Positions 2,207 to 20,718 of a stretch of 64,000 nucleotides of DNA are shown here, piece by piece; the stretch's first letter is position 1; the number at the start of each line of letters is the position of its first letter. The notes beneath the pieces were generated by a model, which saw nothing but the letters and a program-made list of their open reading frames with translations, had not been told where the DNA came from and did not search any database. The DNA comes from Porphyromonas sp. (GTDB lineage: Bacteria > Bacteroidota > Bacteroidia > Bacteroidales > Porphyromonadaceae), in assembly GCA_022772085.1 (NCBI GenBank), contig JALFBN010000003.1:186001-250000 (forward strand). Direction: 5' to 3'. The translations under genes were made by a program, and so were the position numbers.

Positions 2207-2228
2207 GTTATTTCTCGGTGCTTTATCC

Positions 2229-2266: not shown

Positions 2267-2293
2267 AAGTATCACCCACTAATCAATAGAAGT

Positions 2294-3397: not shown

Positions 3398-3461
3398 AAC
3401 TTGTATTTACTTCCTTTTCCCTATGCTTCCCACTATTTCCCTAAGTAATGAATGGTGATGA

Positions 3462-3497
3462 ATACTTGTCTATGTTTGCACCAAAGCATAGATAAGT
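3462..3497. promoter_or_regulatory. 13-bp inverted repeat abutting a start codon
   Basis: ATACTTGTCTATG and CATAGATAAGTAT form a 12-of-13 inverted repeat around TTTGCACCAAAG, whose TTTG and CAAA can also pair. The right arm ends at the base before the ATG at 3498. The centre contains TATGTTTG, a match to the Bacteroidetes -7 box TAnnTTTG. It may be an operator over a promoter, a hairpin that masks the start, or a terminator of the integrase (no T-run follows). Confidence 0.5.
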
Positions 3498-4220
3498 ATG
3501 AAGCCATCAAGCACTAACGATAACTATATTCCTCAAACAATCACCCTCGGGTGTATTGTCCTATTTTCCCTTGCCGTTCGTTCTACTACTTTGAGTTGTG
3601 GAGCGGACGGCTTTACTGCGTTCTGCGTTTTTCTTATTTGTTCCGTCGTCTTCTTTTTGCTCTTTCTAGCGGTGCAATCATTACTCGAAGAATTCTTCGG
3701 GCATATCTTTAGATCTCAGGAGAGAGAGGTCATCGAACCTCCGAAGACAATTTTCCCAACACCATCGCCATCAAACTATGAGCAGTTTCGTCAAGAGGCT
3801 TTTCAAGTAAAGGCAAGAGAAGAGCAAAAGAAAATGGAAGTCGTCACCTCCTACACCCAAAGGACACTTGCGGCCTATATGAGAGAGGAAGAGCTGACAA
3901 AACTTTACGAACAGATTACCCGCTATCTGTCCTCTGAATGGAGTATTGAGAATAGCCAAGATATCAAAATCTCCTCCCAACTCAAGAGCATTGATCTAAT
4001 GCACTTTGGATGGAACATATCTCGCCCTTTCGGGAAGAAAAGAGAAGATATAGCCTTTTTTCTCAAACACACTTTTGCCCATACCTTGAGAGATGTAGAG
4101 GTAAGTTCTATCCAACGAAAGCTCACCAATACAGAGGGGAAATACCTTATCCCTCTCTGTAAAGACCTTGTCATTGATGAGCATTCAACCCCATTTGAAA
4201 GTTATCCAAAAGTTACTTGA
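3498..4220 (+). CDS. Two-helix membrane protein of mobilizable element, function unknown
   Basis: 240 aa. Two hydrophobic helices lie near the N-terminus (about residues 13-32 and 40-65), followed by a charged cytoplasmic region rich in Glu, Gln and Lys that probably forms helices, and a C-terminal segment with no motif I recognise. It lies between the integrase and the second HTH gene on the same strand. The start codon sits directly behind a strong inverted repeat. I do not recognise the family. Position and topology would fit an accessory or exclusion-type protein, but nothing in the sequence proves this. Confidence 0.6.
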   Translation: MKPSSTNDNYIPQTITLGCIVLFSLAVRSTTLSCGADGFTAFCVFLICSVVFFLLFLAVQSLLEEFFGHIFRSQEREVIEPPKTIFPTPSPSNYEQFRQEAFQVKAREEQKKMEVVTSYTQRTLAAYMREEELTKLYEQITRYLSSEWSIENSQDIKISSQLKSIDLMHFGWNISRPFGKKREDIAFFLKHTFAHTLRDVEVSSIQRKLTNTEGKYLIPLCKDLVIDEHSTPFESYPKVT

Positions 4221-4233
4221 AGGTGTTGTAGCG

Positions 4234-4271
4234 CACCGAGAGAACACCGATTTCCTTTGCTCGCAAATAAT
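4234..4271. promoter_or_regulatory. 38-bp regulatory repeat, copy 2 (upstream of excisionase-like gene)
   Basis: CACCGAGAGAACACCGATTTCC continues to CAAATAAT, with only four differences from 2229-2266. Its end overlaps TCGCAAATAA (4261-4270), which forms a perfect 10-bp inverted repeat with TTATTTGCGA (4301-4310) just before the ATG at 4313. Confidence 0.5.
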
Positions 4272-4312
4272 CAGAAACCCGCAGGGCAACCTGCACAAAT
4301 TTATTTGCGAAC

Positions 4313-4675
4313 ATGGACAAAGAAATTACATTCGACAAGTTACCTGAAGCGGTAACGTATCTGACCGAACAGGTCTCTGCCATCAAAGAGATGGTTTCGG
4401 TACTGCGTCCTCCTATACCTGAAGAGAAGTCTCTCATTGGTATAGATGAAGCGTGCAAAGTCATTCAAAAAGCAAAACCTACCATCTATGCTCTCGTCCG
4501 TAAGGGGATTATCCCAGCTTACAAACGGGGCAAGAAGCTCTATTTCTATAAAGAAGAGCTACTGCAATGGGTAGAAAGCGGACGTAAAGGTATCCTTTAT
4601 GCGCCCTCCTCAGAGGAACAATTATCCTCCATAAGAGCAGGCATCCGACACAAGCCTAAATCATTCAAAGGATAA
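4313..4675 (+). CDS. Excisionase-like helix-turn-helix protein (HTH_17)
   Basis: 120 aa. The central region (IGIDEACKVIQKAKPTIYAL, then VRKGIIPAYKRGKKLYFYKEELLQW) is the classic winged helix of the excisionase/HTH_17 family seen in Bacteroides mobile elements. It is preceded by an N-terminal segment predicted to be helical. Such proteins bind DNA at element ends or act as transcription factors for the mobilization genes. It lies 6 nt upstream of the DUF3987 gene, so the two are likely cotranscribed. An inverted repeat in its own leader suggests autoregulation (inference). Confidence 0.8.
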   Translation: MDKEITFDKLPEAVTYLTEQVSAIKEMVSVLRPPIPEEKSLIGIDEACKVIQKAKPTIYALVRKGIIPAYKRGKKLYFYKEELLQWVESGRKGILYAPSSEEQLSSIRAGIRHKPKSFKG

Positions 4676-4681
4676 TGGGCT

Positions 4682-6058
4682 ATGGGAGAACAAACAATCG
4701 TGCCAGAAGTCCTGCTGGATAAAGCCATCGAATTGGGATTGTCATTCTCAGACTCTGCTTTTCCCATTGGTATCTTTCCCTCTGAGATACGAAATATCAT
4801 TGCTGAAGTCCACGAGTGTCAAGGTTTTCCTATCGACTATATCGCATCGGCAATGCTGGTGGCTATCGCTGTTGGCATAGGGAATACGCATCTTGTCCAA
4901 CTCAAACGAGGGTGGCAAGAAAGTGCAATGCTTTACGTGGCATTAGTCGGACGCCCTGGCACGAACAAAAGTCATCCGCTTAGTTTTGCGATGAAACCTT
5001 TTCTTGACTTTGACTATCAGGAGAATAAGCTCTACGAACAAGCCTTCACTGAGTATGACAATATTGCACGGATGAGCCGTAAGGAGCGTATAGAGGCTGG
5101 TCACTCAGAGCAACCGACAGAGCCTATACGAAGAAGATTTATCGTCTCTGACATCACGCCCGAAGGTTTGAGTTTTATCCATGCTCAGAATAAGCGAGGT
5201 CTTTGTTTGTGGACGGATGAATTATCGGCTTGGTTCAAGAACTTCAATCGCTACAACAGCGGTTCCGAGGAGCAGTTTTGGCTCTCTGTGTTTAGTGCTA
5301 AAGCGACCATCAGTGATCGTAAGGGAAATCGAAGTTCCATCTTTATCAAGCGTCCCTATATCTCTGTTGTAGGCACCATCCAAAAGAAGATACTCGGAGA
5401 GCTATCCAAGGGGGAACGCTCCAGTAATGGTTTTATAGACCGTATCCTTTTTGTGATGCCCAATCTACAGCAGAAAGCACGATGGAGCAGATCAGAACTT
5501 CCCGAAAGCACCGAAGGACGATGGTCAAGTATCATTCAGCAACTTATTGAGATACCTTGCTCCAAAGACGAAGAAGGCGAACTACATCCTGAGATTATCC
5601 CCTTTGCCGAGGATGCCAAGGCTCGACTTTATATGTGGCAAGAGGAGCATGCCAAACTCTGCGATACCGAATCCAACGAAACTCTCGTCGGGGTCTACTG
5701 TAAGTTGGAAGTGTATGTCATTCGCTTTTGTCTCATCATCCAAATGGCTCGTTGGGCGTGTTCCGAGGGAGATAAGACCGAGATTGACCTTGTTTCTGTG
5801 GAACGAGCCATCACTCTTACCGAGTATTTTCGCCACTCGGCACAACAAGTGCACTCAGAGATTGCAGGTGTTCATCTCACTCAGCAACAGCAGCAACTCC
5901 TTGCCGAACTGCCAGCATCTTTTCAGACTGCCGAAGCCCTGAGTATTGCCGAACGATTGGGGATGAAAGAGAGGGCTTTTAAGGATTTTCTCAGTCGCAA
6001 TATCGGACATCTCTTTACTAAGGAGCGACACGGACTTTACCATAAACTCAATGTTTAA
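4682..6058 (+). CDS. DUF3987-family ATPase of mobilizable element
   Basis: 458 aa. DUF3987 proteins are primase/helicase-like P-loop proteins found in phages and integrative elements. The visible P-loop is GRPGTNKS (about residue 92-99), followed by segments typical of the family (ISVVGTIQKKIL and a GERSSNGFIDRILF region). A helical C-terminal domain follows. It probably supports element replication or processing after transfer (inference from family). It lies between an excisionase-like gene and a zinc-finger/Toprim-like protein, the usual order in these Bacteroidetes elements. No truncation is seen. Confidence 0.8.
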   Translation: MGEQTIVPEVLLDKAIELGLSFSDSAFPIGIFPSEIRNIIAEVHECQGFPIDYIASAMLVAIAVGIGNTHLVQLKRGWQESAMLYVALVGRPGTNKSHPLSFAMKPFLDFDYQENKLYEQAFTEYDNIARMSRKERIEAGHSEQPTEPIRRRFIVSDITPEGLSFIHAQNKRGLCLWTDELSAWFKNFNRYNSGSEEQFWLSVFSAKATISDRKGNRSSIFIKRPYISVVGTIQKKILGELSKGERSSNGFIDRILFVMPNLQQKARWSRSELPESTEGRWSSIIQQLIEIPCSKDEEGELHPEIIPFAEDAKARLYMWQEEHAKLCDTESNETLVGVYCKLEVYVIRFCLIIQMARWACSEGDKTEIDLVSVERAITLTEYFRHSAQQVHSEIAGVHLTQQQQQLLAELPASFQTAEALSIAERLGMKERAFKDFLSRNIGHLFTKERHGLYHKLNV

Positions 6059-6155
6059 CCCAGCGCATTTTCTGCATTATCAGCATTTCCCTATTCCTTA
6101 TTAACTCGAAAGTGTACAAAGTGCAGATAGTGTGCTATTCAAATCAAATTTATCA

Positions 6156-7217
6156 ATGAGCAATTATAGATTCAAATTAGAACCATATAAAGGTGTGCGC
6201 ACACGCCATACCTGCCCAGCGTGCGAACGCCCCAGATGTTTCGCTCGCTACATAGACACAGAGGGAAAAATAGAGTTCCCTGATAACGTTGGACGTTGCG
6301 ATCACGAACAGCGTTGTGGCTACCACTTTACACCCAAAGATTACTTTGCCGAGCATCCATTAGCAAAAGAAGAGTTGTATTCGTCTGATAGTACCGACTA
6401 CAAACCGACACCAATCATTCTACCGCCATCTTTCATAGAGAAAGCAACGATGGAGCAGACCTTGAGAGGATATAAGCATAACAACCTCTATTGCTTTCTT
6501 TCCGAACAACTTGGAGAGGACGAAGCACTCCAATTGGTACATCGTTATCACGTTGGCACATCTAAACATTGGGAAGGAGCAACCGTATTCTGGCAGATAG
6601 ACACTATCGGAAGAGTCAGAACAGGCAAGATTATGCTCTACAATCCTGAGACTGGCAAGCGAGTAAAGCAACCATTCAATCATATCACATGGGTACATAG
6701 TTTGCTCAAACGCCCAAACTACAACCTTAGTCAATGCTTTTTCGGTGAGCATCTTCTTGACGCCGACAAGCAGAAACCAATCGCTTTGGTTGAGAGCGAA
6801 AAGACGGCACTCATTGCCTCTCATTATCTACCTCAATATCTGTGGTTGGCAACTGGCGGAAAGCACGGATGTTTCAAAAGCAGCAATCTTGTTCCCCTCT
6901 TCGGGCGTCAGGTAGTTCTCTTTCCCGACCTCGGGGCAACAGACTATTGGCAGGAGAAACTAAAGATGATGCAGAACCTCGGAATGGAGGTGCAGCTCTT
7001 TGACTATTTGGAGAAACATGCCTCCCTCCAAGACCGGCAAGCAGGTTACGATATTGCCGATTACCTCCTCCAAATCAAGACGCAAAGTAGTGTATTGAAA
7101 GACCTCATTCGGCAAAATCCCAACCTCCAACTTTTGGTCGATAAACTCGGACTTCAAGTCGTGAAAGAGCAAAGATTGGCACAACCTCTTCCACAGAAGA
7201 GAAGACTGCATAGGTAG
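6156..7217 (+). CDS. CHC2-like zinc-finger / Toprim-like primase-related protein
   Basis: 353 aa from the ATG at 6156 (MSNYRFKLEPYKG); the upstream codons in the track are unlikely to be translated. The N-terminus holds a zinc-ribbon of primase type: CPAC near the start, then CDHEQRCGYH. The central part contains LVESEKTALIASHYLP and later LFPDLGATDYW, resembling the Glu and Asp motifs of a Toprim fold. Known relatives are annotated as DUF6371 or CHC2-domain mobilization proteins. It probably works with the DUF3987 protein in DNA synthesis of the transferred strand (inference). The mob genes follow. Confidence 0.75.
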   Translation: MSNYRFKLEPYKGVRTRHTCPACERPRCFARYIDTEGKIEFPDNVGRCDHEQRCGYHFTPKDYFAEHPLAKEELYSSDSTDYKPTPIILPPSFIEKATMEQTLRGYKHNNLYCFLSEQLGEDEALQLVHRYHVGTSKHWEGATVFWQIDTIGRVRTGKIMLYNPETGKRVKQPFNHITWVHSLLKRPNYNLSQCFFGEHLLDADKQKPIALVESEKTALIASHYLPQYLWLATGGKHGCFKSSNLVPLFGRQVVLFPDLGATDYWQEKLKMMQNLGMEVQLFDYLEKHASLQDRQAGYDIADYLLQIKTQSSVLKDLIRQNPNLQLLVDKLGLQVVKEQRLAQPLPQKRRLHR

Positions 7218-7231
7218 AGAAGCAAGTTTGT

Positions 7232-7275
7232 GTTTTGGGTTACCCAAAACCTCCTTGACGCCCATCAAACAGGGC
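7232..7275. other. Candidate origin of transfer (oriT)
   Basis: GTTTTGGGT-T-ACCCAAAAC is a perfect 9-bp inverted repeat (7232-7250), followed 9 nt later by the small hairpin GCCC-ATCAAACA-GGGC (7260-7275). The pair sits in the about 100-bp gap directly upstream of mobC and the relaxase, where oriT is found in related mobilizable elements. The nick site cannot be assigned from sequence alone. Confidence 0.5.
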
Positions 7276-7316
7276 GAAATAATCCCGATGGTCTCATCAA
7301 TAAAACGAAAGAAACA

Positions 7317-7670
7317 ATGACAACAGAAGACAAAAAGAAAGGGGGACGCCCCACTAAAAAACTATCCGAGAAGAGAAGCTACTCCGTCCTACTCAAACTG
7401 AATACGATGGAGTACTTCACCCTCAAAAGTAAAGCCTCAGAGGCAGGTATCAATAAAAATGAATTTCTGAGAATGCTCATCTCTGAGAGTTTCATCAAGC
7501 CAAGAGTTACGCCTGAGCAGATGCGAGAGATACGCCAGCTCTCGGGCATAGCAAACAACATCAACCAAATTGCTCATCGCCTTCACACTTTTGGTATCTC
7601 TACCATGCCAACCGAGCTACGAATGCTCAAACTTTTAGTCGAAGAACAACTCAAAGCTCTGAAATCATGA
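7317..7670 (+). CDS. mobC: MobC-like relaxosome accessory protein
   Basis: 117 aa from the ATG at 7317 (MTTEDKKKGGRP). The N-terminal half is a ribbon-helix-helix type DNA-binding segment (SEKRSYSVLLKLNTMEYF, then KASEAGINKNEFLRMLI). The C-terminal half carries the MobC signature region (IRQLSGIANNINQIAHRLH). MobC proteins bind near oriT and help the relaxase open and nick the strand. The stop overlaps the start of the relaxase gene by 4 nt (ATGA), typical of translational coupling. The track ORF from 7230 would run through the candidate oriT and is less likely. Confidence 0.88.
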   Translation: MTTEDKKKGGRPTKKLSEKRSYSVLLKLNTMEYFTLKSKASEAGINKNEFLRMLISESFIKPRVTPEQMREIRQLSGIANNINQIAHRLHTFGISTMPTELRMLKLLVEEQLKALKS

Positions 7671-8593
7671 TAGCCAAGATAATCAAAGGAACATCCTTTT
7701 CTGGAGTGCTTGCCTATCTCCTCGGGAAGCAAGAGGGAAAAGCCAGAGTTCTCTATGCAGAAGGAGTTAGGAGGGATGCTTCGTCTCACGAGATAGCCAA
7801 CGACTTTGCACTACAAGCCTCAATGCGTCCTAATGTGAAGAAGCCTGTCTATCATACTATCTTGAGCTTTTCGGCAGAAGATGCTGAGCGACTGGACGAT
7901 AAGACGATGAATAACTTGGCACTACAATACTTGCAGAAGATGGGCTACGGAGATACGCAATACCTCATAGTACGCCATCTCGACAGAGAGCATCCCCACG
8001 TACACATCTGTATCAATCGTATAGACAACAACGGAAAAACTATTTCTGACAGCAACGAAAAGTACCGCTCAACAAAGGTCTGCAAAGAACTCACTGAAGC
8101 TAACCAACTAAAGTGGGGCGAAGGGAAAGAGGCTGTAAAACGTCATAGGCTTCGAGGGAATGACCGACTTCGATATGAAATCTTCGATACCATCAAAGCC
8201 GTATTACCTCGATGTCAGAATTGGGACGAACTCTCTTCCGCTCTGAAACGCCAAGGGATAGACATACAATTCAGGACAAAAGGAAAGAGCGATCAGGTAG
8301 AGGGCGTACTCTTCAGCAAAGATGGCGTAAGTTTTAGTGGTTCACACATCGACCGCTCATGTAGCTACTCCAAACTCACCTTTGCTTTAGAACAGAATGC
8401 AAAGCAAGCTCTTTCACCACCTCTTCTCTCTTCTGAAACAGAAAGTTTTATCGGAGAGCTGGGCGAAGCCATAGAAGATCTTGGCGAGGGGCTATTCGAT
8501 AGCAATGCGCCTGCCGTAGATGTCGCAGAACTCGTATTCCAACGTAAACTAAGAAATCAAGCTAATAAGAAACTAAAACGTAGAAGATTATGA
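7667..8593 (+). CDS. Relaxase / mobilization nuclease (MobA-like)
   Basis: 308 aa. The relaxase domain (PF03432 type) fills the first half. It opens with IIKGTSFSGVLAYLL, contains the HxH metal-binding motif in DREHPHVHICINRID and a further upstream His (VYHTILSF), as expected of the three-His relaxases. The nucleophile Tyr is probably near the N-terminus (Y17 or Y26). It nicks oriT and leads the strand into a recipient, using conjugation machinery from another element because none is encoded here. It overlaps mobC by 4 nt and the next gene by 4 nt, so the three form one operon. Confidence 0.92.
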   Translation: MIAKIIKGTSFSGVLAYLLGKQEGKARVLYAEGVRRDASSHEIANDFALQASMRPNVKKPVYHTILSFSAEDAERLDDKTMNNLALQYLQKMGYGDTQYLIVRHLDREHPHVHICINRIDNNGKTISDSNEKYRSTKVCKELTEANQLKWGEGKEAVKRHRLRGNDRLRYEIFDTIKAVLPRCQNWDELSSALKRQGIDIQFRTKGKSDQVEGVLFSKDGVSFSGSHIDRSCSYSKLTFALEQNAKQALSPPLLSSETESFIGELGEAIEDLGEGLFDSNAPAVDVAELVFQRKLRNQANKKLKRRRL

Positions 8594-9270
8594 ACGAACA
8601 AATGAACATTCTCCTCGAAGTACTCGAGGAAATCAAGCAACAGAACAGAGAACTCAAAGCGAGCGTCTCCAACCTCGCATCTCAACCAATCTCAACAACT
8701 ACATCATCAGAAGAGGATGGCATCTCTCTTACGGATGTAGCACGCCTTATTGGGCAAAAGATTGAGATAGATGGCAAATTCAAGAGTGAACTAACAGATG
8801 TCGCTATCGTCCTTGGCAAACGAATCCGAGAAATCAAAGATGGCGTCACAAAGGCCCAAGAGAAGCAAGCCGAGAACCTTGCCTCTCTATCCGAGAAAAT
8901 CCAAGAAACTCAATCTCCTCCAGAGATCAAGAAGTACTACCTCTTTGATGTCAAACGCTGGGTGGAGTGGCTCATCTGGGGTATATCTCTTGTACTCCTC
9001 GCCTGTACTATTGGCTGGGCAGTATATCTCCGTAATGCCAATCAGACCCTCGAAAGCTACGCCCTTCGCTACCGCATCCTACGTATGGAGCAAGGTTACA
9101 ATAGTCCCACTATCGCCCATCTCGACAGTCTATTCTCCTCCGACTCCATTCGCCAACTACGCCACCAAGTCATCAACTATGAACTCGCAGTCCAACGCCA
9201 AGCCGAACTCGCCATCCAGCAGCAACGAATCACGGAGGAGCAAGCTATTATCTTTCAAAAACTAAAATGA
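8590..9270 (+). CDS. Coiled-coil, single-pass membrane protein of mob operon
   Basis: 226 aa. The N-terminal half (residues about 1-115) is rich in Glu, Lys and Gln with heptad-like spacing, suggesting a coiled coil. One transmembrane segment follows (WVEWLIWGISLVLLACTIGWAVYL, about 117-140), then a C-terminal region with helices rich in Gln and Arg. It starts 4 nt inside the relaxase gene. Proteins of this shape end the mob operon of Bacteroidetes elements and may link the relaxosome to a coupling protein or membrane (inference). No catalytic motif is visible. Confidence 0.7.
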   Translation: MNEQMNILLEVLEEIKQQNRELKASVSNLASQPISTTTSSEEDGISLTDVARLIGQKIEIDGKFKSELTDVAIVLGKRIREIKDGVTKAQEKQAENLASLSEKIQETQSPPEIKKYYLFDVKRWVEWLIWGISLVLLACTIGWAVYLRNANQTLESYALRYRILRMEQGYNSPTIAHLDSLFSSDSIRQLRHQVINYELAVQRQAELAIQQQRITEEQAIIFQKLK

Positions 9271-9356
9271 TAATTAACAACCTAGTAAAAGCATCCCTAT
9301 AAGAAAGCGTATAGGTCTAAAATAATTACCCAAAGATAGAGGACATATAAATCCAC

Positions 9357-9388
9357 AAAAGGACTTGTTTCGCGAAACAAGTCCTTTT
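9357..9388. terminator. Perfect palindromic bidirectional terminator
   Basis: AAAAGGACTTGTTTCG and its exact complement form a 32-nt palindrome with A- and T-runs at the two ends, so it can stop transcription from both sides. It separates the plus-strand mob operon from the minus-strand defence operon. Confidence 0.85.
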
Positions 9389-9427
9389 GTCATAAGTATA
9401 ATAATTTCCCAATAATAACTCCTTGTT

Positions 9428-12400
9428 CTATTCTTTCTTTGTTATTTCAGAATCCTCTCCTAGCTCCTTTAGCCATTCTGATATGTTAACGCTTTCATTT
9501 TTGCTGAGAATACCTGAGCCGAAATTTCTTGTATGTATATCATCCATACCATAGTATAGTTTTATTTTCTTGTTTTTGGGTAACCAAACAAGATGATGCT
9601 GGTGAAGCCAAAGTAACATAGCAGAGATTTTCTTACTGAACAGTTTCTTAATACTTGAATATCTTCGAACAAAGTCTGAAGGTTCATAATTCCTGATTTT
9701 CTGATGTATAAAACCTTTATTATCCATATAAGCATAACCGCCGTTCTGAGCATGATTGGCTCCTATATCTTTTGGATAACGAATCATTCTCTCTGTTAGG
9801 ATAGGCCAAAACATAGTCTTTCCGTTAGTTTTTAGATACTCGAGAAGAAAATCTTTACGAACGAATAATGCGCTATGACCACTTGAGTACATATAGTTAT
9901 CCAATACAACAATCTCGTTTTTACCATTTACCCATACTCCAGTATCATTAGAGAATCTCAACTGGAGTCCTTTAAATAACCACTCATTAGGCATCAGCAA
10001 ATTCACTGAGTCTTCGGATGAAATATCATCATCGGTTGAAAGCGTGTATTGTAAATAAGCAGGCTCAATGATAATACCATCGAAAATCTTGTGTCCAACA
10101 GAGAATGGTATCTTTTTGTGATACTCATCACTTACAACTTGCATATAAATTGAGGACCAATAAAACTCTCGAGTAAATATGTTATAAATATCAGAGTTCT
10201 CATGAAAGGAACGTCCTTCGATTCCTACATTGTATAAATTGTCACATACTGTACTCAAATCCTCCTTATTGACAATATATGCTTGGATAAAAGTCCATAA
10301 ATCTCTTATAGGAGACTTATCGTCATTTGGTTCATGCACAAACTTGCTGTACGAAAATAAATTTACCCATTCAATTCCATTTTCATCAGTAATAAGAACA
10401 TACTCCCTAATCCTTGGCATATTCTTCCATGCTTTCAACCATTTAACATCACTCTTTGGTCTTGATATATCAAAATTAGGAAGTTTATATTTGCTCTGAT
10501 GATGTAATGACTTGCGTCTAGGATATATCGTAGGATCGATAGTTCTAGCTCTTTGTACAGGAACAGACCATTCATTACTCCAATCTTTTTCTGGGTATTT
10601 ATCCATCATTCGAGCCATAATACGATACATAGCTATCCATTGATATTTCTTTCCTATGCGTTCAATTTTACTATGAGATCGGTTATAGCTAGCATTATTC
10701 TTATCAAAATGAACAAAAACACTAGGATCATATCCATACTCTTCAAATATCATATGTATTGCCCAATTCGACAACATCTCAATATTCTCGCCAAAGGCAC
10801 CAAGATTAGACTCAAATACATATCTCCCAAAATCTCCATAACTTCTCACTCCATGGTTAGGAGCCATAGATGACAAGATCGAATGCTGAGCTCTATATAC
10901 GTCTCGTTCATTTTCTGGAATTGTTTTCCAATCTCTATCATACTTTGCGGTTATCTCATCATTTGAAGGGATTTCTGGTAAAGAACCATCCGTAAATGGT
11001 ACATGTATAGATTTCTTATCTATAGCTACGTCTAAGCCATAGCTAAGACCAAGCTCTACAATATTACAAGCATAGTCACGAACTAAAACATGTTCAGGAA
11101 CGCACTTCTGAATAAACACATTGTCGTATACCCACTTTGCTGTGGTACAACAACTTTCTCTATCTTGCATTAGGAGTAATACCCCATAAATCGCACACCA
11201 AAGACGTTCTTGAATGTAAGGGTCATTAACGAAACTATATTTCTCCAGCAATGGCAAAAGAAGATTCTTATGCTGAGTTAAGATATTCACAATAGCATGA
11301 GTGATGTAATCTCTCAGTTCTCTCCAAGTAGTGGCTAATCCCCAAATTAGAGTCTCAAGACATGCTTTAGCAATCTGATTATCTATTGATTTAAGAGTGT
11401 CGACCGAAGCCTCACACCCCCATCGAGCCAAATCCATGAGTTGTTTGCCATGTGCCCATGGATCAGAAATAAAAACAGTCCATATTTCGTCTCTTTGCAC
11501 CATGCTTAAATTCCACAGCACATCATAAAGAGTAAATCCATTTGAAGTTTCATCTGTTCTGTAAGGACACGATAAGATAATTTCAAACAACAAACTATAT
11601 TCTTTTGTATCCTTAATCCCATGTATTAGCTCCTGACCTTTCTTTGTAAAAATATCTCTCCACACCGAACTATTAATAAATGCTTGAAACGCCTTATCCT
11701 TATCCTTTTTCTCAACAAGTTCTATCAGTTCTGTATCTTTAGTCATTGGAATAAGAATAGCTAAAGGTTCAGCAAGATTACCCCAATGATAATCTAACCA
11801 TTGCGATGCTGGAAGTTTAGAAATCATATATTCAGCAATGAAATAATCACCTAGTCTCTCAAAACCAAAGTTCACATAAGTAGTACCATTGTAGAGCTCC
11901 GTTCTTAATAACCCCTCATCAATTAGCAATTCAAAGAATTCATTGGGAGCCTTAGTGTATTGAGCATCCTGAGCCAACCGCATCATTACGACTTGGTATT
12001 CGAGATTCCAACGACTACCAGCAGTAACCATTAACTCTGCTACTGAACGCAGTGCTTTAATTACAAGATTTTGAGCTTCGTTATATTTAAAATCTATCGC
12101 TATTTCATGATTGGTATCATCACAGTACTCTAGAAGGGTTGTCCAGAAATTTGTAAACACCAATGGACGATGACTTCTTTCATGATTGCGACAGTACTTG
12201 ATTAAGAAAAGAGGATTTGAAAATTCCTCTCCATATATAGGCCAAGTCGGTTGCTCTATACCGAAAGATGAGAACATGTACTCACAAGCTTCACGCTCAT
12301 ATCCTTTGAACCCATGGTGCTGATATACTGCGTATGCTGGATTGTGGGCAATATCATAAAACCAATTTTTACGATCAGATATGCGGAAACTTATAACAAG

Positions 12401-13615
12401 GCGCAGGTACTCACATGACTCTATTTCTTGCAAAAAGGCCAACAGAAATTTGCTCCATAACTCCTCGCCAGCTCCTTCATTAATAGCATCAATAAATATT
12501 ACCACAGGTTCTCCTATTCTCCTGCCATAATTATTGAGTTGCGTCAATAATTTCTCCTTCTTGCACTTGATATCCAATAACTCTCGAATTTGGGAGAGAG
12601 GATCAGATGATAGTGTGAAATGTTGCCCCAAAAGTAATATGGATGGCTCGTGAATACGTTTTCGTTGAGTTACCATATCTCCTATGAGATGGGATTTTCC
12701 CGTACCAGCAACACCTGTAACTATAATTGTATGACATTTCTTAAACTCAATCCAACTATTAGAAAGTACTTTCTGTAAGGCATATCCATCATCACGAATA
12801 GAATCTCCTTTTATTCGAATGCCATTTTTATCCTCATGGCTATAATAAAAATCCTTAAATACAAGTAAGAACTCACTTACCAAATCTTTTAATTCAAGAT
12901 AAGAAGTTACAGTTCCACTTAAGCTGTCTATCTTTTCTGCAAGAAGTCTACATTGAACTGAAATTTCAGAGTAAGAAGAATCTTTATCTGTATTTCTAAT
13001 AAACACCCTCAATGTATCCCTAAATCGCCCTATTTCCTCTTTTAGTAAAGGCTTGAACTTATCAGTAATGTGCAATGAAGCCAATGCGAAATCCATATTT
13101 TCAAATGGAAAATTTCGTTCTTCGGAATAACGTTTGTCTAGATTCTTTATTTGCTTAGAATTTTGTTCTTCAAACCATTTCTGAGAAGGAGTGAAGTTAA
13201 ATTCCTCATCAATCAGACTACATGCTTCAACTAGTTTTCGCAACTCTTCAGGTTTTCTCTTATTCGAGTTCCAAAGATAAAGATAATAGCCGACTGCAAT
13301 TAACATGGCTATTCCAAAACTCAACCATTCAGAATTTTGGGACAGATACCCCCAAAAGGTTATTTCTTTATCTGCGGAATGAATAGAAATGTAAACTCCT
13401 AGGAGTTGAGGTATAATACCAGCAAGAGCGGCCTCTGTTGCCATAAAAGTGTAGAACACTTTACGCTCAGCACGCTTCTTCAGAAATCCTACAATTATAT
13501 TAATCCATTCCTTCCAATTTGCCCTACGCACCTCTTTTATAACAAGAGCAATAGAAGTAATTCTGGCAACAACCCACAGGAACAAGGCAAAGAATATAGT
13601 AAATACAATAATCAT
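9428..13615 (-). CDS. Membrane-anchored STAND-like NTPase, candidate anti-phage sensor
   Basis: 1395 aa, the largest protein in the window. Three hydrophobic helices lie near the N-terminus (about residues 3-26, 54-78 and 97-115). A helical linker and a P-loop NTPase domain follow: Walker A GVAGTGKS at 301-308 and Walker B VVIFIDAINEG at 371-381. The acidic Asp-Ala-x-Asn-Glu form is typical of STAND ATPases such as the Avs family. The remaining 900 residues show no catalytic motif and may be a helical or repeat-type sensor region. It is the last gene of the minus-strand run after hsdR. By analogy with Avs proteins the N-terminal module would be the effector, here membrane helices rather than a nuclease (inference). 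An alternative is a general NACHT-like regulator unrelated to defence. Confidence 0.7.
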   Translation of the reverse strand: MIIVFTIFFALFLWVVARITSIALVIKEVRRANWKEWINIIVGFLKKRAERKVFYTFMATEAALAGIIPQLLGVYISIHSADKEITFWGYLSQNSEWLSFGIAMLIAVGYYLYLWNSNKRKPEELRKLVEACSLIDEEFNFTPSQKWFEEQNSKQIKNLDKRYSEERNFPFENMDFALASLHITDKFKPLLKEEIGRFRDTLRVFIRNTDKDSSYSEISVQCRLLAEKIDSLSGTVTSYLELKDLVSEFLLVFKDFYYSHEDKNGIRIKGDSIRDDGYALQKVLSNSWIEFKKCHTIIVTGVAGTGKSHLIGDMVTQRKRIHEPSILLLGQHFTLSSDPLSQIRELLDIKCKKEKLLTQLNNYGRRIGEPVVIFIDAINEGAGEELWSKFLLAFLQEIESCEYLRLVISFRISDRKNWFYDIAHNPAYAVYQHHGFKGYEREACEYMFSSFGIEQPTWPIYGEEFSNPLFLIKYCRNHERSHRPLVFTNFWTTLLEYCDDTNHEIAIDFKYNEAQNLVIKALRSVAELMVTAGSRWNLEYQVVMMRLAQDAQYTKAPNEFFELLIDEGLLRTELYNGTTYVNFGFERLGDYFIAEYMISKLPASQWLDYHWGNLAEPLAILIPMTKDTELIELVEKKDKDKAFQAFINSSVWRDIFTKKGQELIHGIKDTKEYSLLFEIILSCPYRTDETSNGFTLYDVLWNLSMVQRDEIWTVFISDPWAHGKQLMDLARWGCEASVDTLKSIDNQIAKACLETLIWGLATTWRELRDYITHAIVNILTQHKNLLLPLLEKYSFVNDPYIQERLWCAIYGVLLLMQDRESCCTTAKWVYDNVFIQKCVPEHVLVRDYACNIVELGLSYGLDVAIDKKSIHVPFTDGSLPEIPSNDEITAKYDRDWKTIPENERDVYRAQHSILSSMAPNHGVRSYGDFGRYVFESNLGAFGENIEMLSNWAIHMIFEEYGYDPSVFVHFDKNNASYNRSHSKIERIGKKYQWIAMYRIMARMMDKYPEKDWSNEWSVPVQRARTIDPTIYPRRKSLHHQSKYKLPNFDISRPKSDVKWLKAWKNMPRIREYVLITDENGIEWVNLFSYSKFVHEPNDDKSPIRDLWTFIQAYIVNKEDLSTVCDNLYNVGIEGRSFHENSDIYNIFTREFYWSSIYMQVVSDEYHKKIPFSVGHKIFDGIIIEPAYLQYTLSTDDDISSEDSVNLLMPNEWLFKGLQLRFSNDTGVWVNGKNEIVVLDNYMYSSGHSALFVRKDFLLEYLKTNGKTMFWPILTERMIRYPKDIGANHAQNGGYAYMDNKGFIHQKIRNYEPSDFVRRYSSIKKLFSKKISAMLLWLHQHHLVWLPKNKKIKLYYGMDDIHTRNFGSGILSKNESVNISEWLKELGEDSEITKKE

Positions 13616-13643
13616 TTAGTCGGTGTGTTTATACTCAATAAGT

Positions 13644-13733
13644 TTAGTTATTATAGTTATTTTCGATAGCATCTATGAAAGAATCTGGTTCAATAATTAA
13701 TGATTCTATACATTGGTCTTCTTGCATTATCAT
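13644..13733 (-). CDS. Small acidic ORF between hsdR and the NTPase gene (29 aa)
   Basis: Too short for the supplied track. Reading on the minus strand, AGGAAG precedes an ATG and a 29-codon frame begins MIMQEDQCIESL and ends ENNYNN, rich in Asp, Glu and Asn. It starts 18 nt after the hsdR stop and ends 28 nt before the NTPase start, so it would fit a cotranscribed microprotein. It may equally be chance or a relic. No homology is claimed. Confidence 0.3.
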   Translation of the reverse strand: MIMQEDQCIESLIIEPDSFIDAIENNYNN

Positions 13734-13751
13734 TGCTACTTCCTATTAACA

Positions 13752-16700
13752 CTACCCTTCTTGGTGATTTCCCTTGAAGTGCTCCACCTGCTCCATCACT
13801 TGGTCGATAACCTCATCATTGTACTGAGGGGGATAGCCATTTTGGTGGAGACAAATGAATATCTTGTTGTTGAGGTCTGCACGGATATTACTATTATTGA
13901 GCCAGTCAGTGAAAGAAGACTGGATGTCTATCAGCTCCTTAATCTTCTTCGCCAATATCTTACACTTGTCATTGAAGATAAAACCATTCTCCTCTTTATC
14001 CTCTCCATACTCGAAGTTGTACTTATCTCGTAAGTGCATTAAAATATCATAGAATGCCTTTTCCTCAAAGGTCAGACCCAGATGTCGAAAACTCTCTCGA
14101 TCCTTGCCGAGTTGTTTCAGCAAATCCAGAGCCTGTTTCGTTGCCTCTTCCATAATCTCAGAAACTGCTGTCGCTTGTGTATGCGAGGCTTCTTCTGCCG
14201 AAAGAACAGATCGACGTTCGTGATACTTGTCCAATGTTTCCTTTAGCAACTCCTCATACTTCTCTGCTGCGATTTTATTGGTATTCTTATACTCTCTAAT
14301 GGCTTTGCGGATCATCTTTACCAATACTTCCAACTTAGTTGCGGGTAGTTTGATACCCTCGAGTTGTGCTACAAACTCAGGACTAAAAATCTGTTCCTCC
14401 ACATCGGTATCAAGAATACTGACCACAGAGTTACACACCAGTGCTTCCCTCACCATCTTCTCCACGGCTCTATTCATACTCTCAGCATCGTGCTTGTCAC
14501 CAGAAGTCTTACGAATATAAGAAGCTACCGCCATAAAGCATTGCGAGAGCGAAAGCAATTCGTGGTTAAGGACAGCAGATGGCTGACAGATATCATACGC
14601 CACTCGAAGGCGTTTGATATGAGCGAAGAAATAACTTTGAGCGCTGACGGCTTTTGGAGGACGATTGCCTTGGTCTTTGTTCCATCCAGACGTTTGCGAC
14701 TGGATATAATTGGCAGCTTCGGAAAGGCATTCCAATCGCTCCAATGGCTTTGTATTCTTGTCGATGAAAGGAGTGAGGTCAAAGCCCACAAAGAGCTTTT
14801 TGATGAGGTCAATCTCTACGATGAGAGCTTCCAATGCCTGCTGTACATCATCCTCACTTGGTCCAAAATCCTCTCCGCCAAATCGACTCATTGCCTCCAT
14901 CATATTCTTTCGGATACCGATATAGTCTATGACATACCCAAACTCCTTGCCTGCAAATTTACGGTTCACACGACTAATGGTCTGTATGAGCGTTTGTTTC
15001 TGCAATGGCTTATCGTTGTATAGATAAGTTAGGCAGGGGACATCGAAGCCTGTAATCCACATATCGACAACTATGACAATACGGAAGTTGGACTGCTCCA
15101 TCTTGAATGCATCGTCGAGCAACTTTGTCCGACTTCTATCCCCCAGATAGTCATACATCTCTTTCGGGTCATCCTTTCCACGTGTTGCCACCATAGCAAT
15201 GGTAGGCATTGAGGGTAGACTTCGTAACTCATCATCACTCAGTAACGTATCATCAGGAGACTTTCGCTCAACGAACCAGTCTGGATATAAGGACTCAAAC
15301 TTCTTCAACAGGTTGTATGCAATCGATCTTTTGCTACACACAATCATAGCCTTTTGGGGTACATCTGCCTTGTTGTTACAAGCCTGAGTATAGTGCTCTG
15401 CTATATCTCTGGCGAGTCGCTCCAGTCGCTCATCATCCCCCAAGATAACCTCCATAGCACTCATTGCCTTCTTGCTGGTCGCAATATCAGCCTCTGTCGC
15501 TCCCTCCTCTGCACACTGATTGTAGTAGCGGTCTATTTCTTCGACTTTAGCCGTATCGAGGGTAACCTTGGCGATGCGTGGGATATACTTCAAGTCTACA
15601 GTGATGCCATCATCTACAGCCTGCTTCATTGTATAGCTATCGACAATACCACCAAAGACCTGTATCGTCTCATCTATCGGAGTACCCGTAAAACCTACGA
15701 AAGTAGCGTTGGGGAAGGCCGTACGCAAGTGCTCGGCATAAGGCTTCGTGACAAAAGCTCCAATTTGCTCAGACTCTTTGGTTGAAACTCCCTCCTTGAC
15801 TGTATGCCGAACCTTGAGTTGAGTGTTGAGCCGTACTTGGCTGCGATGAGCTTCGTCGGAAAAGCAAATAATGTTGTGTCGTGTATTGAGCAACCCTATC
15901 TCCTCACAAAACTTCTGGATGGTACAGATAAAGAAGCCTCCCGACTGCCGAAGAGACATCTCAGTTTTTAGGCTCTCTCGGTCAGCGATGATCTTGGCTG
16001 CACCTATCGAAAGAAAATCTTCAGAGCGTAAAAATAGTTTGCCCGCTTGGGACTGCAAATCCTCACGGTCTACTATCATCACAATGGTAGGAGAACCAAG
16101 TTCGGGACAACGCAAGGAGAGTTGGCGAGCCAAAAACATCATCGTATAAGTCTTGCCACACCCCGTAGCCCCAAAGTAAGTACCTCCCTTGTTATCTTGT
16201 CTCTCAAATGCTTGGACTACACTCTCTCGGAGCATACGAGTCGCAAAGAATTGAGGGTAGCGACAGACAACTTCTTCCTGTTTAGGATACACCTCGTCTG
16301 GAAAGTAGATATAATCACGCACGATCTCCAGAAAACGCATAGGGGCATACACACCCGATACGATTGTACGCACTTGGTCCAAACCTTTCTCTGCTGCCTT
16401 GTCTTCGTTATTGACTTTCTTCCAAGCATAATAATGCTCATAGGGCGTATAGGTCGTACCCAGTTTGGTATTGTTGGCAGTCGCATCGCTGATACAGGAG
16501 AGCGGACAGTAGCGCAGTAGATGCGGTATATCCCTCATGTAGCGAGTATGGATTTGCTGATAGGCATCTGCTATGGTTGCCGTGGCATCCGTAGGATTCT
16601 TTAGCTCAAAGATGCAGAGGGGGATACCATTGACGAAGAGTAGCACATCAGGGATACGCCTATCCCCTTGTATCCCATAGCCCACTTCGTATTGATTGAC

Positions 16701-17054
16701 ACAACGGAAGCGATTGTCCGATGGGGTATCGAAATCGAGATACTCTATATCGAAAATCTCACCATCGGAGTGACGAGTATAGCGATAGCCGTCTCGCAGT
16801 AGACGATACGTATTGCGGAGTATATCAAAATGAGTCTGTCCCCCAGTATGTTGTAGGTGGCTGACAATTTCGTCCAGGTCATTAGCCTCCAATGCAGGAT
16901 AGCGCTCTTGGAGGTACTGGCGTAGGTCTCTGGAGATGAGAATATCTCTATTGTTACGTCTTATATCCCCTCCGTGTGTGTACTCCCATCCTTCCTGCTG
17001 TAGCAAGTCTATAAGGGCTTCCTCATATTCACTTTCATAAAACTTCATCTTCAT
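13752..17054 (-). CDS. hsdR: Type I restriction enzyme, R (motor/endonuclease) subunit
   Basis: 1100 aa, normal length for HsdR. The N-terminal nuclease domain has the PD-(D/E)xK pattern in RRIPDVLLFVNG and IFELKNP. The SF2 helicase motor shows Walker A FGATGCGKTYTMMF, the DEAH box FSDEAHRSQ, motif III-like GFTGTPID, and the motif VI region QTISRVNRKF. A C-terminal helical domain for docking to HsdM/HsdS follows. It translocates DNA from an unmodified site and cleaves at a distance. It begins 8 nt after hsdS on the same strand. All key motifs are present, so restriction should be active. Confidence 0.95.
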   Translation of the reverse strand: MKMKFYESEYEEALIDLLQQEGWEYTHGGDIRRNNRDILISRDLRQYLQERYPALEANDLDEIVSHLQHTGGQTHFDILRNTYRLLRDGYRYTRHSDGEIFDIEYLDFDTPSDNRFRCVNQYEVGYGIQGDRRIPDVLLFVNGIPLCIFELKNPTDATATIADAYQQIHTRYMRDIPHLLRYCPLSCISDATANNTKLGTTYTPYEHYYAWKKVNNEDKAAEKGLDQVRTIVSGVYAPMRFLEIVRDYIYFPDEVYPKQEEVVCRYPQFFATRMLRESVVQAFERQDNKGGTYFGATGCGKTYTMMFLARQLSLRCPELGSPTIVMIVDREDLQSQAGKLFLRSEDFLSIGAAKIIADRESLKTEMSLRQSGGFFICTIQKFCEEIGLLNTRHNIICFSDEAHRSQVRLNTQLKVRHTVKEGVSTKESEQIGAFVTKPYAEHLRTAFPNATFVGFTGTPIDETIQVFGGIVDSYTMKQAVDDGITVDLKYIPRIAKVTLDTAKVEEIDRYYNQCAEEGATEADIATSKKAMSAMEVILGDDERLERLARDIAEHYTQACNNKADVPQKAMIVCSKRSIAYNLLKKFESLYPDWFVERKSPDDTLLSDDELRSLPSMPTIAMVATRGKDDPKEMYDYLGDRSRTKLLDDAFKMEQSNFRIVIVVDMWITGFDVPCLTYLYNDKPLQKQTLIQTISRVNRKFAGKEFGYVIDYIGIRKNMMEAMSRFGGEDFGPSEDDVQQALEALIVEIDLIKKLFVGFDLTPFIDKNTKPLERLECLSEAANYIQSQTSGWNKDQGNRPPKAVSAQSYFFAHIKRLRVAYDICQPSAVLNHELLSLSQCFMAVASYIRKTSGDKHDAESMNRAVEKMVREALVCNSVVSILDTDVEEQIFSPEFVAQLEGIKLPATKLEVLVKMIRKAIREYKNTNKIAAEKYEELLKETLDKYHERRSVLSAEEASHTQATAVSEIMEEATKQALDLLKQLGKDRESFRHLGLTFEEKAFYDILMHLRDKYNFEYGEDKEENGFIFNDKCKILAKKIKELIDIQSSFTDWLNNSNIRADLNNKIFICLHQNGYPPQYNDEVIDQVMEQVEHFKGNHQEG

Positions 17055-17062
17055 CCCTTTCT

Positions 17063-18187
17063 TTAGTTATGTTCGGCGTACTGTATCAGTGCCGGGCATA
17101 GGGTTTGTAATTGCACTCGAGCTTCGCTGGCAATCTTTTTTGCCTCCTCAATACAGTGATAGAGATTAACTATTGACTGTTGAACCTCTGGGGGAGGGAG
17201 AGGCACTTGAATATTGGTAAATCTTTCCCAATCAAGATTGGAGCGAACGCTACTATCACTGAGATACCATCCATACCGATCCATCTCACTCCTCTTGAAT
17301 TGCAAGAATAAATACTCGGAAAGTAGCTTAGGAGATTTGATCTTGAAGGTGGTATATGCAGGAGAAACGAGAGCTGGCTTATCTTTGTCGTAAAGAGCAA
17401 TCCTAATGCAAATATCTCTACCTGTTTGCATGCCACTAAACGCAAATATCCCCTTACTAACAATCTTGTATTTAGTATTATCCAACTCATTAGTATTAGC
17501 GTGGGTTGGCATAAATGTTTTATCTTTATTAATTCCCAAAAATGAATAACTCCTTCCTTCTGTGTTACGTTCGTCGCATTCCTCGATGTACTTACCGAGT
17601 TCAACTGATGGGTATTTCTTTTGGCAATCTACGATAAACGCTTGGCAGGCTTTGGACAATGGGGCTATTAAGGCCTCATTCTCTTCGGCTAAACGCTGTA
17701 GTCCAGTGTAAGTATTGACTAACTCTTGTTGTACTTCAATTGATGGCAAGGGGATACGAATATCACAAAATCGATCCCAATCAAGATTAGAACGAATACT
17801 TCCATCACTAAGAAATGCGCCATACCGATCCATTTCCTTGCGCTTAAAGAATATAAATAGATATTCAGGAAGCAACTTACTCTCATCCTTCATTCTGAAA
17901 GTTGTATATGCTGGCGATATTAACACTGGATTTTTGTCTTCTCTCAGAGCCAAGCGGATACATTGATCTCGTCCAGTTTGCATTCCACTAAAAACAAATA
18001 CCCCCTGACCTACAACTTTGTACTTGGAATTGTCTAATTGGTTCGTATCAGCAACAGTTGGCATAAACGTCTTTTCCTTATTAATTCCATAAAAAGGAAG
18101 TGGTAGTCCTTCGAGATTACGTTCGTCGCACTCTTCGATATAGTCACCGAGCCTGATCCACGGAGTTGTTTTATTCTTCGCAGTCAT
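17063..18187 (-). CDS. hsdS: Type I restriction enzyme, S (specificity) subunit with two near-twin target domains
   Basis: 374 aa with the usual two target-recognition domains, each followed by a conserved helical spacer. The halves are unusually alike: both carry YIEECDERN, a GINK-KTFMPT stretch, FSGMQTGRD, SPAYTTF, EMDRYG, SNLDW-RF and PLP-EVQQ in the same order. Natural HsdS proteins normally have two unrelated domains reading a split asymmetric site, so this one probably reads a symmetric or nearly symmetric split site (inference). The start overlaps hsdM by 17 nt. Confidence 0.93.
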   Translation of the reverse strand: MTAKNKTTPWIRLGDYIEECDERNLEGLPLPFYGINKEKTFMPTVADTNQLDNSKYKVVGQGVFVFSGMQTGRDQCIRLALREDKNPVLISPAYTTFRMKDESKLLPEYLFIFFKRKEMDRYGAFLSDGSIRSNLDWDRFCDIRIPLPSIEVQQELVNTYTGLQRLAEENEALIAPLSKACQAFIVDCQKKYPSVELGKYIEECDERNTEGRSYSFLGINKDKTFMPTHANTNELDNTKYKIVSKGIFAFSGMQTGRDICIRIALYDKDKPALVSPAYTTFKIKSPKLLSEYLFLQFKRSEMDRYGWYLSDSSVRSNLDWERFTNIQVPLPPPEVQQSIVNLYHCIEEAKKIASEARVQLQTLCPALIQYAEHN

Positions 18188-19763
18188 AGCCTAATTGTTT
18201 AAGTGCTTGGCGCAACATCTTGTCATTCTCTGTTTGTCGCTTGAGTAAATCTGACACAGTGTTAGCTGTTGCAGTGAGTACTTGGTGGTAATCAATCTGG
18301 CTATCCCTATCTATAAACTCGATATAACGACTGGGAACCAGCGTGAAGTCATTGACTCTCAGTTCGTCTATACCTACAGACCGATAGAGTTCGGGCTCAG
18401 CATATTGCGTACCGTCCGTGCCCTCTCTCTGCCAACGAAAATAGATGTCAGATGCTCGTCGTACTTGGTCTGAGTGTAACTCTACTTTCTTCTTTTGCTC
18501 GCCTTTGACGGCATTGGTTGTCCATTGACGCAAGTCCATGAATAGGATTTCGCCCGAGCGATTGCGTAACCTGCGACCATGATGGGTGCCACCTCTCTTG
18601 TTTTGGTTGAGTATCCAGAGGGTAACAGATATATCTGTAGCGTAGAATAGTTCTCGGGGAAGTACGATGATGGCTTCCACTTTGTCCCCTTCGATAAGTT
18701 TGCGACGTATCTCACTGGCATCACTGTCCCCCAGTGCGCCATTGGCAAGGAGGAAGCCTGCGACGCCACGCCCCGCTTTGAGCTTCGAGAGGATATGCAG
18801 TATCCACGCATAGTTGGCATTGCTCTCTGGTGGCACACCATAGTCTGCCCAGCGAGGGTCGGTGCTGAGTGCCGTGTCGTACCACCGCTTGAGATTAAAG
18901 GGAGGATTAGCCATAATGTAATCAAAGGTGAGTCCTTTGTGTAGGTCGTTGGTGAAGGAGGAGGCATTCCGCTCGCCTAAGTGGTGCGAAATACCTCGCA
19001 CCGCTAAGTTCATCTTAGCCAAACGATAGGTCGCAGGGTCATTCTCTTGACCATATACATTGATTTGAGCGATGTCGCCATCCTTTTCCTCTACATACTT
19101 GGCACACTGCACAAACATACCACCCGAGCCACAGCAGGGGTCGTAGAGTGTACCATCATAAGGCTCTATAAAGGCAGCTATCAGCTCTACAATATCGTGA
19201 GGAGTATAGAACTCGCCCTCCTCTTTAGAGGCATTGACAGCAAAAGACTTGAGGAAGTATTCATAGACTCGTCCAATGAGATCCTTCTGCTCACCAAAGA
19301 CCTTGTGCGAAATCTTATTGACCTCATCCACCACCTTTTTGATGACACTTTTCTCCAGATTTATAGCAGTAAATAGACCTAAGCGCACACACCCTTTGAG
19401 AGTATCGCCACTTTCCTCCAGACATTGGAGTGCATCGTCCAGTGTACTATTTAACTTTTCACTCGGAGTCTCCAAGAATAGACTCCATCGAGCCTTCTCA
19501 GGAACAAATGCAGTTCCTCCGTATGCTCGAGGGTTATTGAGGCGCATTGAGATGATAGCTTCGTCAGTGATTCCACTCTCGATGAAACTCTGGCGCAATG
19601 TCTCCTGAGCATCCTCAAACTTCTCCCCGATGAAGCGGAGGAATACCAGAGTCAAAAGTAAATCTCTCTTGTCATTGAGGGTTGCATTACTACGGAGGTA
19701 GTCTCGACAGTTGAATAGTATAGTTTCGAGATTTAATGTCTCTTCCTTTTTCTTTTTAGCCAT
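18171..19763 (-). CDS. hsdM: Type I restriction enzyme, M (adenine methyltransferase) subunit
   Basis: 530 aa. An N-terminal helical HsdM domain (LETILFNCRDYLRSN onwards) precedes the N6-adenine methyltransferase fold: SAM-binding motif YDPCCGSGGMFV, catalytic NPPF in IMANPPFN, and a downstream IIVLPRELFYATD segment. It methylates the HsdS target and forms M2S with HsdS. It starts 4 nt after the hipT-like gene, an unusually close link between a toxin and a modification enzyme, and overlaps hsdS by 17 nt. Start MAKKKKEETLN matches the family. Confidence 0.96.
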   Translation of the reverse strand: MAKKKKEETLNLETILFNCRDYLRSNATLNDKRDLLLTLVFLRFIGEKFEDAQETLRQSFIESGITDEAIISMRLNNPRAYGGTAFVPEKARWSLFLETPSEKLNSTLDDALQCLEESGDTLKGCVRLGLFTAINLEKSVIKKVVDEVNKISHKVFGEQKDLIGRVYEYFLKSFAVNASKEEGEFYTPHDIVELIAAFIEPYDGTLYDPCCGSGGMFVQCAKYVEEKDGDIAQINVYGQENDPATYRLAKMNLAVRGISHHLGERNASSFTNDLHKGLTFDYIMANPPFNLKRWYDTALSTDPRWADYGVPPESNANYAWILHILSKLKAGRGVAGFLLANGALGDSDASEIRRKLIEGDKVEAIIVLPRELFYATDISVTLWILNQNKRGGTHHGRRLRNRSGEILFMDLRQWTTNAVKGEQKKKVELHSDQVRRASDIYFRWQREGTDGTQYAEPELYRSVGIDELRVNDFTLVPSRYIEFIDRDSQIDYHQVLTATANTVSDLLKRQTENDKMLRQALKQLGYDCEE

Positions 19764-19767
19764 TCTA

Positions 19768-20718
19768 TTATATGCTTAGATTGAATGTTTCAAATCTATA
19801 TTTCATTAATGCAACATACTGTTCCTGCATCCCCTTTGGTAAGAAGCTCTGGTGGATGCAGGCTTCCCATTCGGGGAGGAGGCGCTCAAAGCGAGCGAAG
19901 ATGTTGTCGCACACTTTCTCATCTAGTCCTGAGGCTGTCATAGCTTCGAGGAAGTGTTGGCGAGTGAGTTTGCGCTTTTTGCCACAGAGCGTCAGTGCAA
20001 GTTCTTCCGTATCCTCAGGAATAGCAAGTGCCGTAGACAGCAGATCATAGGCGGGTGTTAGTTGGTATTCGTTGCCTATTGGCGCATAGAGCGAGTAATT
20101 CTTGAGGTGCATATCCGCATTACCTATCAGCCACGAAAAGAGTACCTGCTCCCAATACTTGACAAGATCAAGCTTCGGCACAGAACTATACTTGGTGATG
20201 AGCTTGGCCATCTGCTCGTGTGAGCCTTTGTACTTATACTCGGTCAGACGCTCTGAAAGCTGACACATATCTTCCATTGGGAGTTTTTCGCCCAGCTCTG
20301 TTCGGTCTATGCGACGAGTGATATAGCATAGCTCGCCATCGCTAAATCGCATCAGTCCATGAGGAACTGTTTCAATCTTGGCAATCTCGGCAAGGTGCAT
20401 CGACACATCTTCCAACTCGGGGAGATGCGGATAACGCTCTGTTTGAGGTTTAAGAATAAACCGACCCCACAAACCCACAATGGTAAATCGCTTGGGAGAA
20501 TTGCTCATCTGATCAAAGTCGAGAGACAGCTTGGGTTGTACTCCTGTCACTGTGGTTTGAGAACGAACAACCTCGTCAGCCAACGCTCGTACTTCGTTAC
20601 TTCTATAGGGCAATATCGGTGCTTGGGGCATCCCAAACAATTTGCGGCAACACTTGGCATGGTAATCCACCTCTCCATCAACCAAAGGTTCGTAGCAATA
20701 TAGGCATCTATTCGTCAT
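19768..20718 (-). CDS. hipT: HipT-like serine/threonine kinase toxin (HipA C-terminal type)
   Basis: 316 aa, the kinase part of a split HipA. The N-terminus has a short Cys-rich piece (CLYC, then CC). The P-loop-like region reads TTVTGVQPKLSL, where TVTG occupies the place of the autophosphorylated Ser-x-Ser of HipT. The catalytic loop is GNADMHLKNYSL, and the metal-binding Asp is in AYDLLSTA. In E. coli O127 HipBST, HipT phosphorylates tryptophanyl-tRNA synthetase and HipS is the antitoxin. The target here is unknown. It overlaps hipS by 11 nt and lies 4 nt before hsdM. Confidence 0.87.
   Translation of the reverse strand: MTNRCLYCYEPLVDGEVDYHAKCCRKLFGMPQAPILPYRSNEVRALADEVVRSQTTVTGVQPKLSLDFDQMSNSPKRFTIVGLWGRFILKPQTERYPHLPELEDVSMHLAEIAKIETVPHGLMRFSDGELCYITRRIDRTELGEKLPMEDMCQLSERLTEYKYKGSHEQMAKLITKYSSVPKLDLVKYWEQVLFSWLIGNADMHLKNYSLYAPIGNEYQLTPAYDLLSTALAIPEDTEELALTLCGKKRKLTRQHFLEAMTASGLDEKVCDNIFARFERLLPEWEACIHQSFLPKGMQEQYVALMKYRFETFNLSI

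Follow-up and report, generated by a model that had tools for sequence, protein, structure and literature searches.

How an anti-phage sensor of the Avs type might act when predicted membrane helices occupy the place where its relatives carry a nuclease is the question raised by a large gene of Porphyromonas sp., referred to here as TM-Avs2. This gene is found on the minus strand at 9428-13615 of the window (the whole stretch of 64,000 nucleotides that was analysed), an interval that includes the stop codon, and it encodes a protein of 1395 amino acids, as indicated by its translation, a PADLOC assignment to Avs2, and a profile match to PDB 9o4e, an Avs2 of solved structure. The open reading frame noticed in a preliminary description of this DNA is therefore real, while its strand, left unstated there, is the minus strand; a plus-strand reading of 9428-13615 was discarded as non-coding, because it is full of stops. 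Translation starts at the ATG at 13615, and this start codon is kept, given that the homologues of P. gingivicanis and of two Prevotella open with the same MII. At the other end of the gene, a probable intrinsic terminator with a 16-bp stem (9355-9390, minus strand) lies 3' of the coding sequence.

The motifs on which a STAND-like NTPase had been proposed are present in translation and alignment. Walker A (GVAGTGKS) corresponds to residues 301-308 (12692-12715, minus strand) and Walker B (VVIFIDAINE) to residues 371-380 (12476-12505, minus strand), and the residues G301, G304, G306, K307, D376, A377, N379, and E380 are invariant in an alignment of 14 diverse homologues. The protein is almost certainly a member of Avs2, and a variant of it by its predicted effector, according to several profile and sequence searches. 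All six PADLOC Avs2 models match it (best E=2.9e-210), and one of them spans residues 144-1308. The NCBIfam Avs2 model scores the protein at 638.8 bits, short of its equivalog cut-off (1000), so that a divergent member is indicated. In a phmmer search the one relevant solved chain was 9o4e (E=2.8e-92 over residues 283-895), and a profile built from 14 homologues, with the query included, matches this chain with 1293 bits at profile positions 142-1396, almost to its end, which shows that the C-terminal Avs sensor region is present. Pfam returned for the whole protein only AAA and nSTAND6, both sub-threshold. A hit to a housekeeping ATPase family, named beforehand as a ground for abandoning the proposal, was looked for with Pfam and NCBIfam profiles, and none appeared above a curated cut-off. 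No second Avs2 was found in the source genome of TM-Avs2.

The predicted structure is in agreement with this assignment. An AlphaFold2 model of residues 1-760, computed with nine relatives (mean pLDDT 73.7, pTM 0.69), contains an alpha/beta NTPase and a helical subdomain, followed by helices and a beta-hairpin at 570-583 which are read as a putative winged helix. The P-loop and the helical and winged-helix subdomains of a STAND protein, whose absence had been the other ground for abandoning the proposal, can thus all be located in the model. Among the folds matched by this model are Cdc6/ORC, NOD2 (E=6.6e-6), and an Avs4-portal complex (E=2.4e-3). For residues 640-1395 the prediction is weak (pLDDT 61.5, pTM 0.50) and exhibits an alpha-solenoid and then an alpha/beta part; in the PDB, these ~750 residues have significant matches only to Avs3 in complex with terminase (two chains, E=3e-7). 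The TM-scores of the fold matches are low (0.20-0.27), so they back the family and the topology rather than atomic detail.

From these data the following layout can be drawn, with all coordinates on the minus strand. A helical linker (residues 144-290; 12746-13186), seen as helices in the model and containing the point at which Avs2 homology begins in the alignment, leads to the alpha/beta core of the STAND NTPase (residues 291-435; 12311-12745), modelled with a pLDDT mostly of 68-92 and one block of 56, to which the Cdc6/ORC, NOD2, and Avs4 folds correspond. The helical and winged-helix subdomains, placed by the secondary structure of the model and the strands of the wing hairpin, occupy residues 436-600 (11816-12310), and the alpha-solenoid and C-terminal alpha/beta sensor region, delimited by the model, the Avs3-terminase fold, and the 9o4e profile, residues 601-1300 (9716-11815). 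The nearly 900 residues that the preliminary description had left without a recognisable motif are recognised as Avs2 by the profile searches, and its suggestion that they could be the sensor holds, because both the C-terminal fold and the profile matches are those of Avs. Alignments delimit in addition a C-terminal extension (residues 1301-1395; 9431-9715), which is common to the TM-Avs2 subclade, partly present in a Phocaeicola copy, and missing from most other Avs2.

The novel point of this protein, as judged from the alignments, is its N-terminus, where a predicted membrane module replaces the nuclease or other N-terminus of Avs2. Homology with other Avs2 opens at W147, within the conserved pattern WF...I.NL..RY..E.NF. 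Upstream of this residue, most relatives (e.g., L042, L044, and L087-L089) show an Mrr-like PD-(D/E)xK N-terminus (FEELVCQLAR...GVE...GWQAK), which by its sequence motif is a predicted nuclease; three others (L051, L062, and L065) possess a soluble N-terminus of another kind ('MEPIS'), and another three (L043, L091, and L092) a trypsin-like one. Residues 1-143 of TM-Avs2 contain no PD-(D/E)xK nuclease motif according to alignment and hydropathy, and the protein does not belong to the nuclease type of Avs2. Direct alignment hence bears out the earlier remark that the place of the nuclease in relatives is taken here by membrane helices.

The membrane module itself (residues 1-143; 13187-13615, minus strand), defined by hydropathy and alignment, was analysed with a Kyte-Doolittle window of 19 residues. 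Predicted helix 1 (about residues 1-24; 13544-13615, minus strand) reaches 2.57 at residues 1-19 and is conserved in the homologues L007-L010. Helix 2 (about residues 54-80; 13376-13456, minus strand) is weaker, with 1.42 at residues 62-80 and a GES peak of 1.23, and helix 3 (residues 97-115; 13271-13327, minus strand) shows values of 1.55 and 1.82, respectively. The maximum of the Kyte-Doolittle profile outside the module is 1.13. When the whole protein was shuffled 1000 times, 15 of the shuffled sequences also reached 2.57, and hydropathy by itself is only suggestive of membrane segments; the pattern is convincing because it is kept in the homologues. Hydropathy therefore predicts at least two membrane helices, two of them clear and the middle one marginal, and the count of three given in the preliminary description obeys the positive-inside rule. 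Residues 25-53 contain nine Lys or Arg versus three Asp or Glu, and residues 79-96 a single Lys or Arg. This distribution fits a predicted topology of three helices in which the N-terminus is external and the STAND part cytoplasmic; a two-helix topology is disfavoured because the basic stretch 25-53 would then be outside. In the structural model, residues 1-139 have a pLDDT below 50 almost throughout, and the second membrane segment is partly drawn as strands. For the module alone, Pfam gave no match above cut-off, searches of plasmids and of viral contigs returned nothing convincing, and no PHROGs family matched better than E=0.0096. A match of the module to LPG_synthase_TM (E=0.03) was taken as chance.

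Proteins of the membrane form make up a rare subclade within Bacteroidales, with two members in Porphyromonas, three in Prevotella, and one divergent copy on a Phocaeicola plasmid. Over the full length, the P. gingivicanis copy is 93% identical to the query (L007), those of Prevotella disiens and Prevotella sp. HJM029 are both 77% identical (L008 and L009). That of Prevotella RGIG4051 (L010, 7998-13395) is 64% identical and broken by a DDE transposase gene. Directly upstream of this last copy there is an AbiL-like pair. The copy on the plasmid of Phocaeicola massiliensis (L071) shares 29% identity and has an N-terminal Kyte-Doolittle peak of 2.42. In a tree of 27 cores it groups with the membrane subclade with a support of 94/95 on a long branch, so its placement is moderately firm. 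No TM-Avs2 beyond these members was found in 393 Bacteroidales genomes and 249 genomes of the genus of P. disiens, viral contigs yielded no close relatives, and phage records gave two weak and partial Avs-like matches. In the comparison with Prevotella, dN/dS is 0.24 for the module, 0.09 for the NTPase, and 0.18 for the whole gene, which indicates that the module is kept by purifying selection, although more loosely than the core. The value for the module versus P. gingivicanis is 0.55, based on few changes, and whole-gene values range between 0.18 and 0.26 across comparisons.

TM-Avs2 is located between the genes of a mobilizable element on the plus strand and a type I restriction-modification system on the minus strand. 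The former (1292-9270) comprises, by profile matches, genes for an HTH/excisionase-like protein, a tyrosine recombinase, a DUF3987 protein, and MobA-like and MobB-like relaxases, in an order that is the same in L058 and L059 and partly so in L057. The latter, identified by PADLOC upstream of TM-Avs2 (13752-19763), consists of hsdR (13752-17054), hsdS (17063-18187), and hsdM (18171-19763). P. gingivicanis (L059) has the same arrangement as the window. In genome G003 (L058) the backbone is mostly 87-99% identical, and hsdR 98%, while the slot between them holds a SIR2-HerA system (10564-14147); in G014 (L057), a different SIR2-HerA pair (10384-13646) adjoins the same mobilization genes. The mobilization genes of these SIR2-HerA sister elements are mostly 84-99% identical to those of the window. 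A cargo slot in which whole defence systems are swapped is good evidence for a defence role of TM-Avs2. In two Prevotella genomes the gene has no hsd genes nearby, and the element on which it resides there is another one, with distant mob genes; the intact copies are found on two or more kinds of mobilizable element. When att repeats of the element were looked for in positions 1-35000, no direct repeat of at least 16 nt was found to link the mnmE end to any other site.

Several other loci of this region were also observed. The hsdS genes of sister elements are only 48-54% identical, versus ~98% for hsdR, that is, the specificity subunit has changed while the backbone is constant. Further along the window are a split HipA-like pair (19768-22366), formed by HipA_C (19768-20718) and Couple_hipA (20708-21043), the latter in a region with stretches repeated ~995 bp away at 90% identity; a gene for an Mrr-type restriction endonuclease with Mrr_N and Mrr_cat (22521-23456); and a type V-A CRISPR locus (24706-31842) encoding Cas12a (1261 aa), Cas4, Cas1, and a probable Cas2 (ORF 29973-30305), with an array of ~22 repeats spaced near 64 nt.

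Taking these data together, we favour, with a probability of roughly 0.6, the reading that TM-Avs2, cargo of a mobilizable element, is an anti-phage sensor of the Avs2 family with a membrane effector, in which helices clustered by a tetramer would depolarise the membrane. For published Avs2 it has been described that the C-terminus senses the large terminase subunit (and in one case also Ksap1), and that the N-terminal effector is activated by ATP-dependent oligomerisation, given as trimerisation (PMC12724215); the 9o4e entry consists of four chains. According to this mechanism, residues 1-143 would be inserted in the inner membrane, the N-terminus facing out and the STAND and sensor parts remaining cytoplasmic. 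The C-terminal region would be bound by a conserved phage protein, for which the precedent of the family points to the large subunit of terminase or to a protein like Ksap1, and the ATP-bound subunits would then assemble as a tetramer, as in other Avs. Packing of the four membrane modules would open a pore or produce a lesion, the membrane would be depolarised, and infection would be aborted without DNA cutting. With a membrane module in the place of the effector, the most economical interpretation is that assembly brings the helices together and breaches the membrane barrier, as has been proposed for the tetrameric Cam1 pore (PMC10808066). Membrane damage, already suggested in the preliminary description, is a plausible effector action.

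A doubtful alternative, although the one to be taken most seriously, is that the module is only an anchor, which would tether an Avs2 sensor to the inner membrane, close to where DNA enters or is packaged, while arrest is brought about by the ATPase, the oligomer, or a partner. The small size of the module and its lack of a match to any known effector family in Pfam or PHROGs would suit such a function, as would the report that Avs5, irrespective of the activity of its effector, gathers at sites associated with the membrane (PMC12931631). However, in the alignment the module sits exactly at the effector position of intact relatives, and no partner gene is conserved, given that the Porphyromonas copies adjoin hsdR but the Prevotella copies do not. 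This same neighbourhood bears on the idea, which we consider very improbable, that TM-Avs2 is an accessory of the adjacent restriction-modification system instead of an independent one. The gene follows hsdR after 136 bp, both being on the minus strand, and it adjoins hsdR in P. gingivicanis too; nevertheless, a sister element has SIR2-HerA beside the same hsdR neighbour, two Prevotella elements carry the gene in the absence of nearby hsd genes, and Avs2 has been described as a single-module system (PMC12724215). An equally slim chance is given to the membrane form being a decayed or domesticated STAND protein that has lost its role in defence. The transposase insertion in the RGIG4051 copy would speak for decay, but the other copies are intact, retain all the Walker residues, show the low whole-gene dN/dS mentioned above, and have spread on more than one kind of element.

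The favoured reading, that of a membrane effector, can be placed among known systems. TM-Avs2 resembles Avs2 9o4e (1484 aa) in the STAND NTPase core and the sensor, aligned over the profile positions given above at ~25% identity, but differs from it in 95 additional C-terminal residues and in the first ~143 residues, which are predicted membrane segments instead of the soluble MEPIS N-terminus seen in members of the same length (L062). Avs3 and Avs4 (PDB 8dgc and 8dgf) match in fold, Avs3 in the C-terminal part and Avs4 in the core; on the other hand, they show no significant sequence match to TM-Avs2, and their effectors are nucleases (PMC12931631). In the literature consulted, the effectors of Avs1-Avs4 are nucleases and that of Avs5 is Sir2 (PMC12931631). 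As an analogue of the action we suggest Cam1, which also combines a small N-terminal membrane part with an oligomeric cytoplasmic sensor, and for which a tetrameric pore that depolarises cells has been both predicted and supported (PMC10808066). Cam1 is nonetheless an unrelated CRISPR effector with a CARF sensor of cA4 and a single membrane helix, and it is not a STAND protein (PMC10808066).

Both versions of Avs2 exist in the genus Porphyromonas. The nuclease-type Bacteroidota Avs2 L042 and the gene of the window have a common core, alignable from W147, and differ in the Mrr-like N-terminus of the former, and they would represent a clean natural nuclease/membrane pair built on one receptor in one genus, which suits domain-swap experiments. 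More tentatively, this may be an Avs lineage that kills via a STAND-assembled pore within the receptor itself, in the manner of a resistosome, and that mobilizable elements have spread through Bacteroidales of mouth and gut. If the proposed mechanism is true, one and the same sensor of phage proteins can also be coupled to membrane collapse, for which plant resistosomes provide a parallel.
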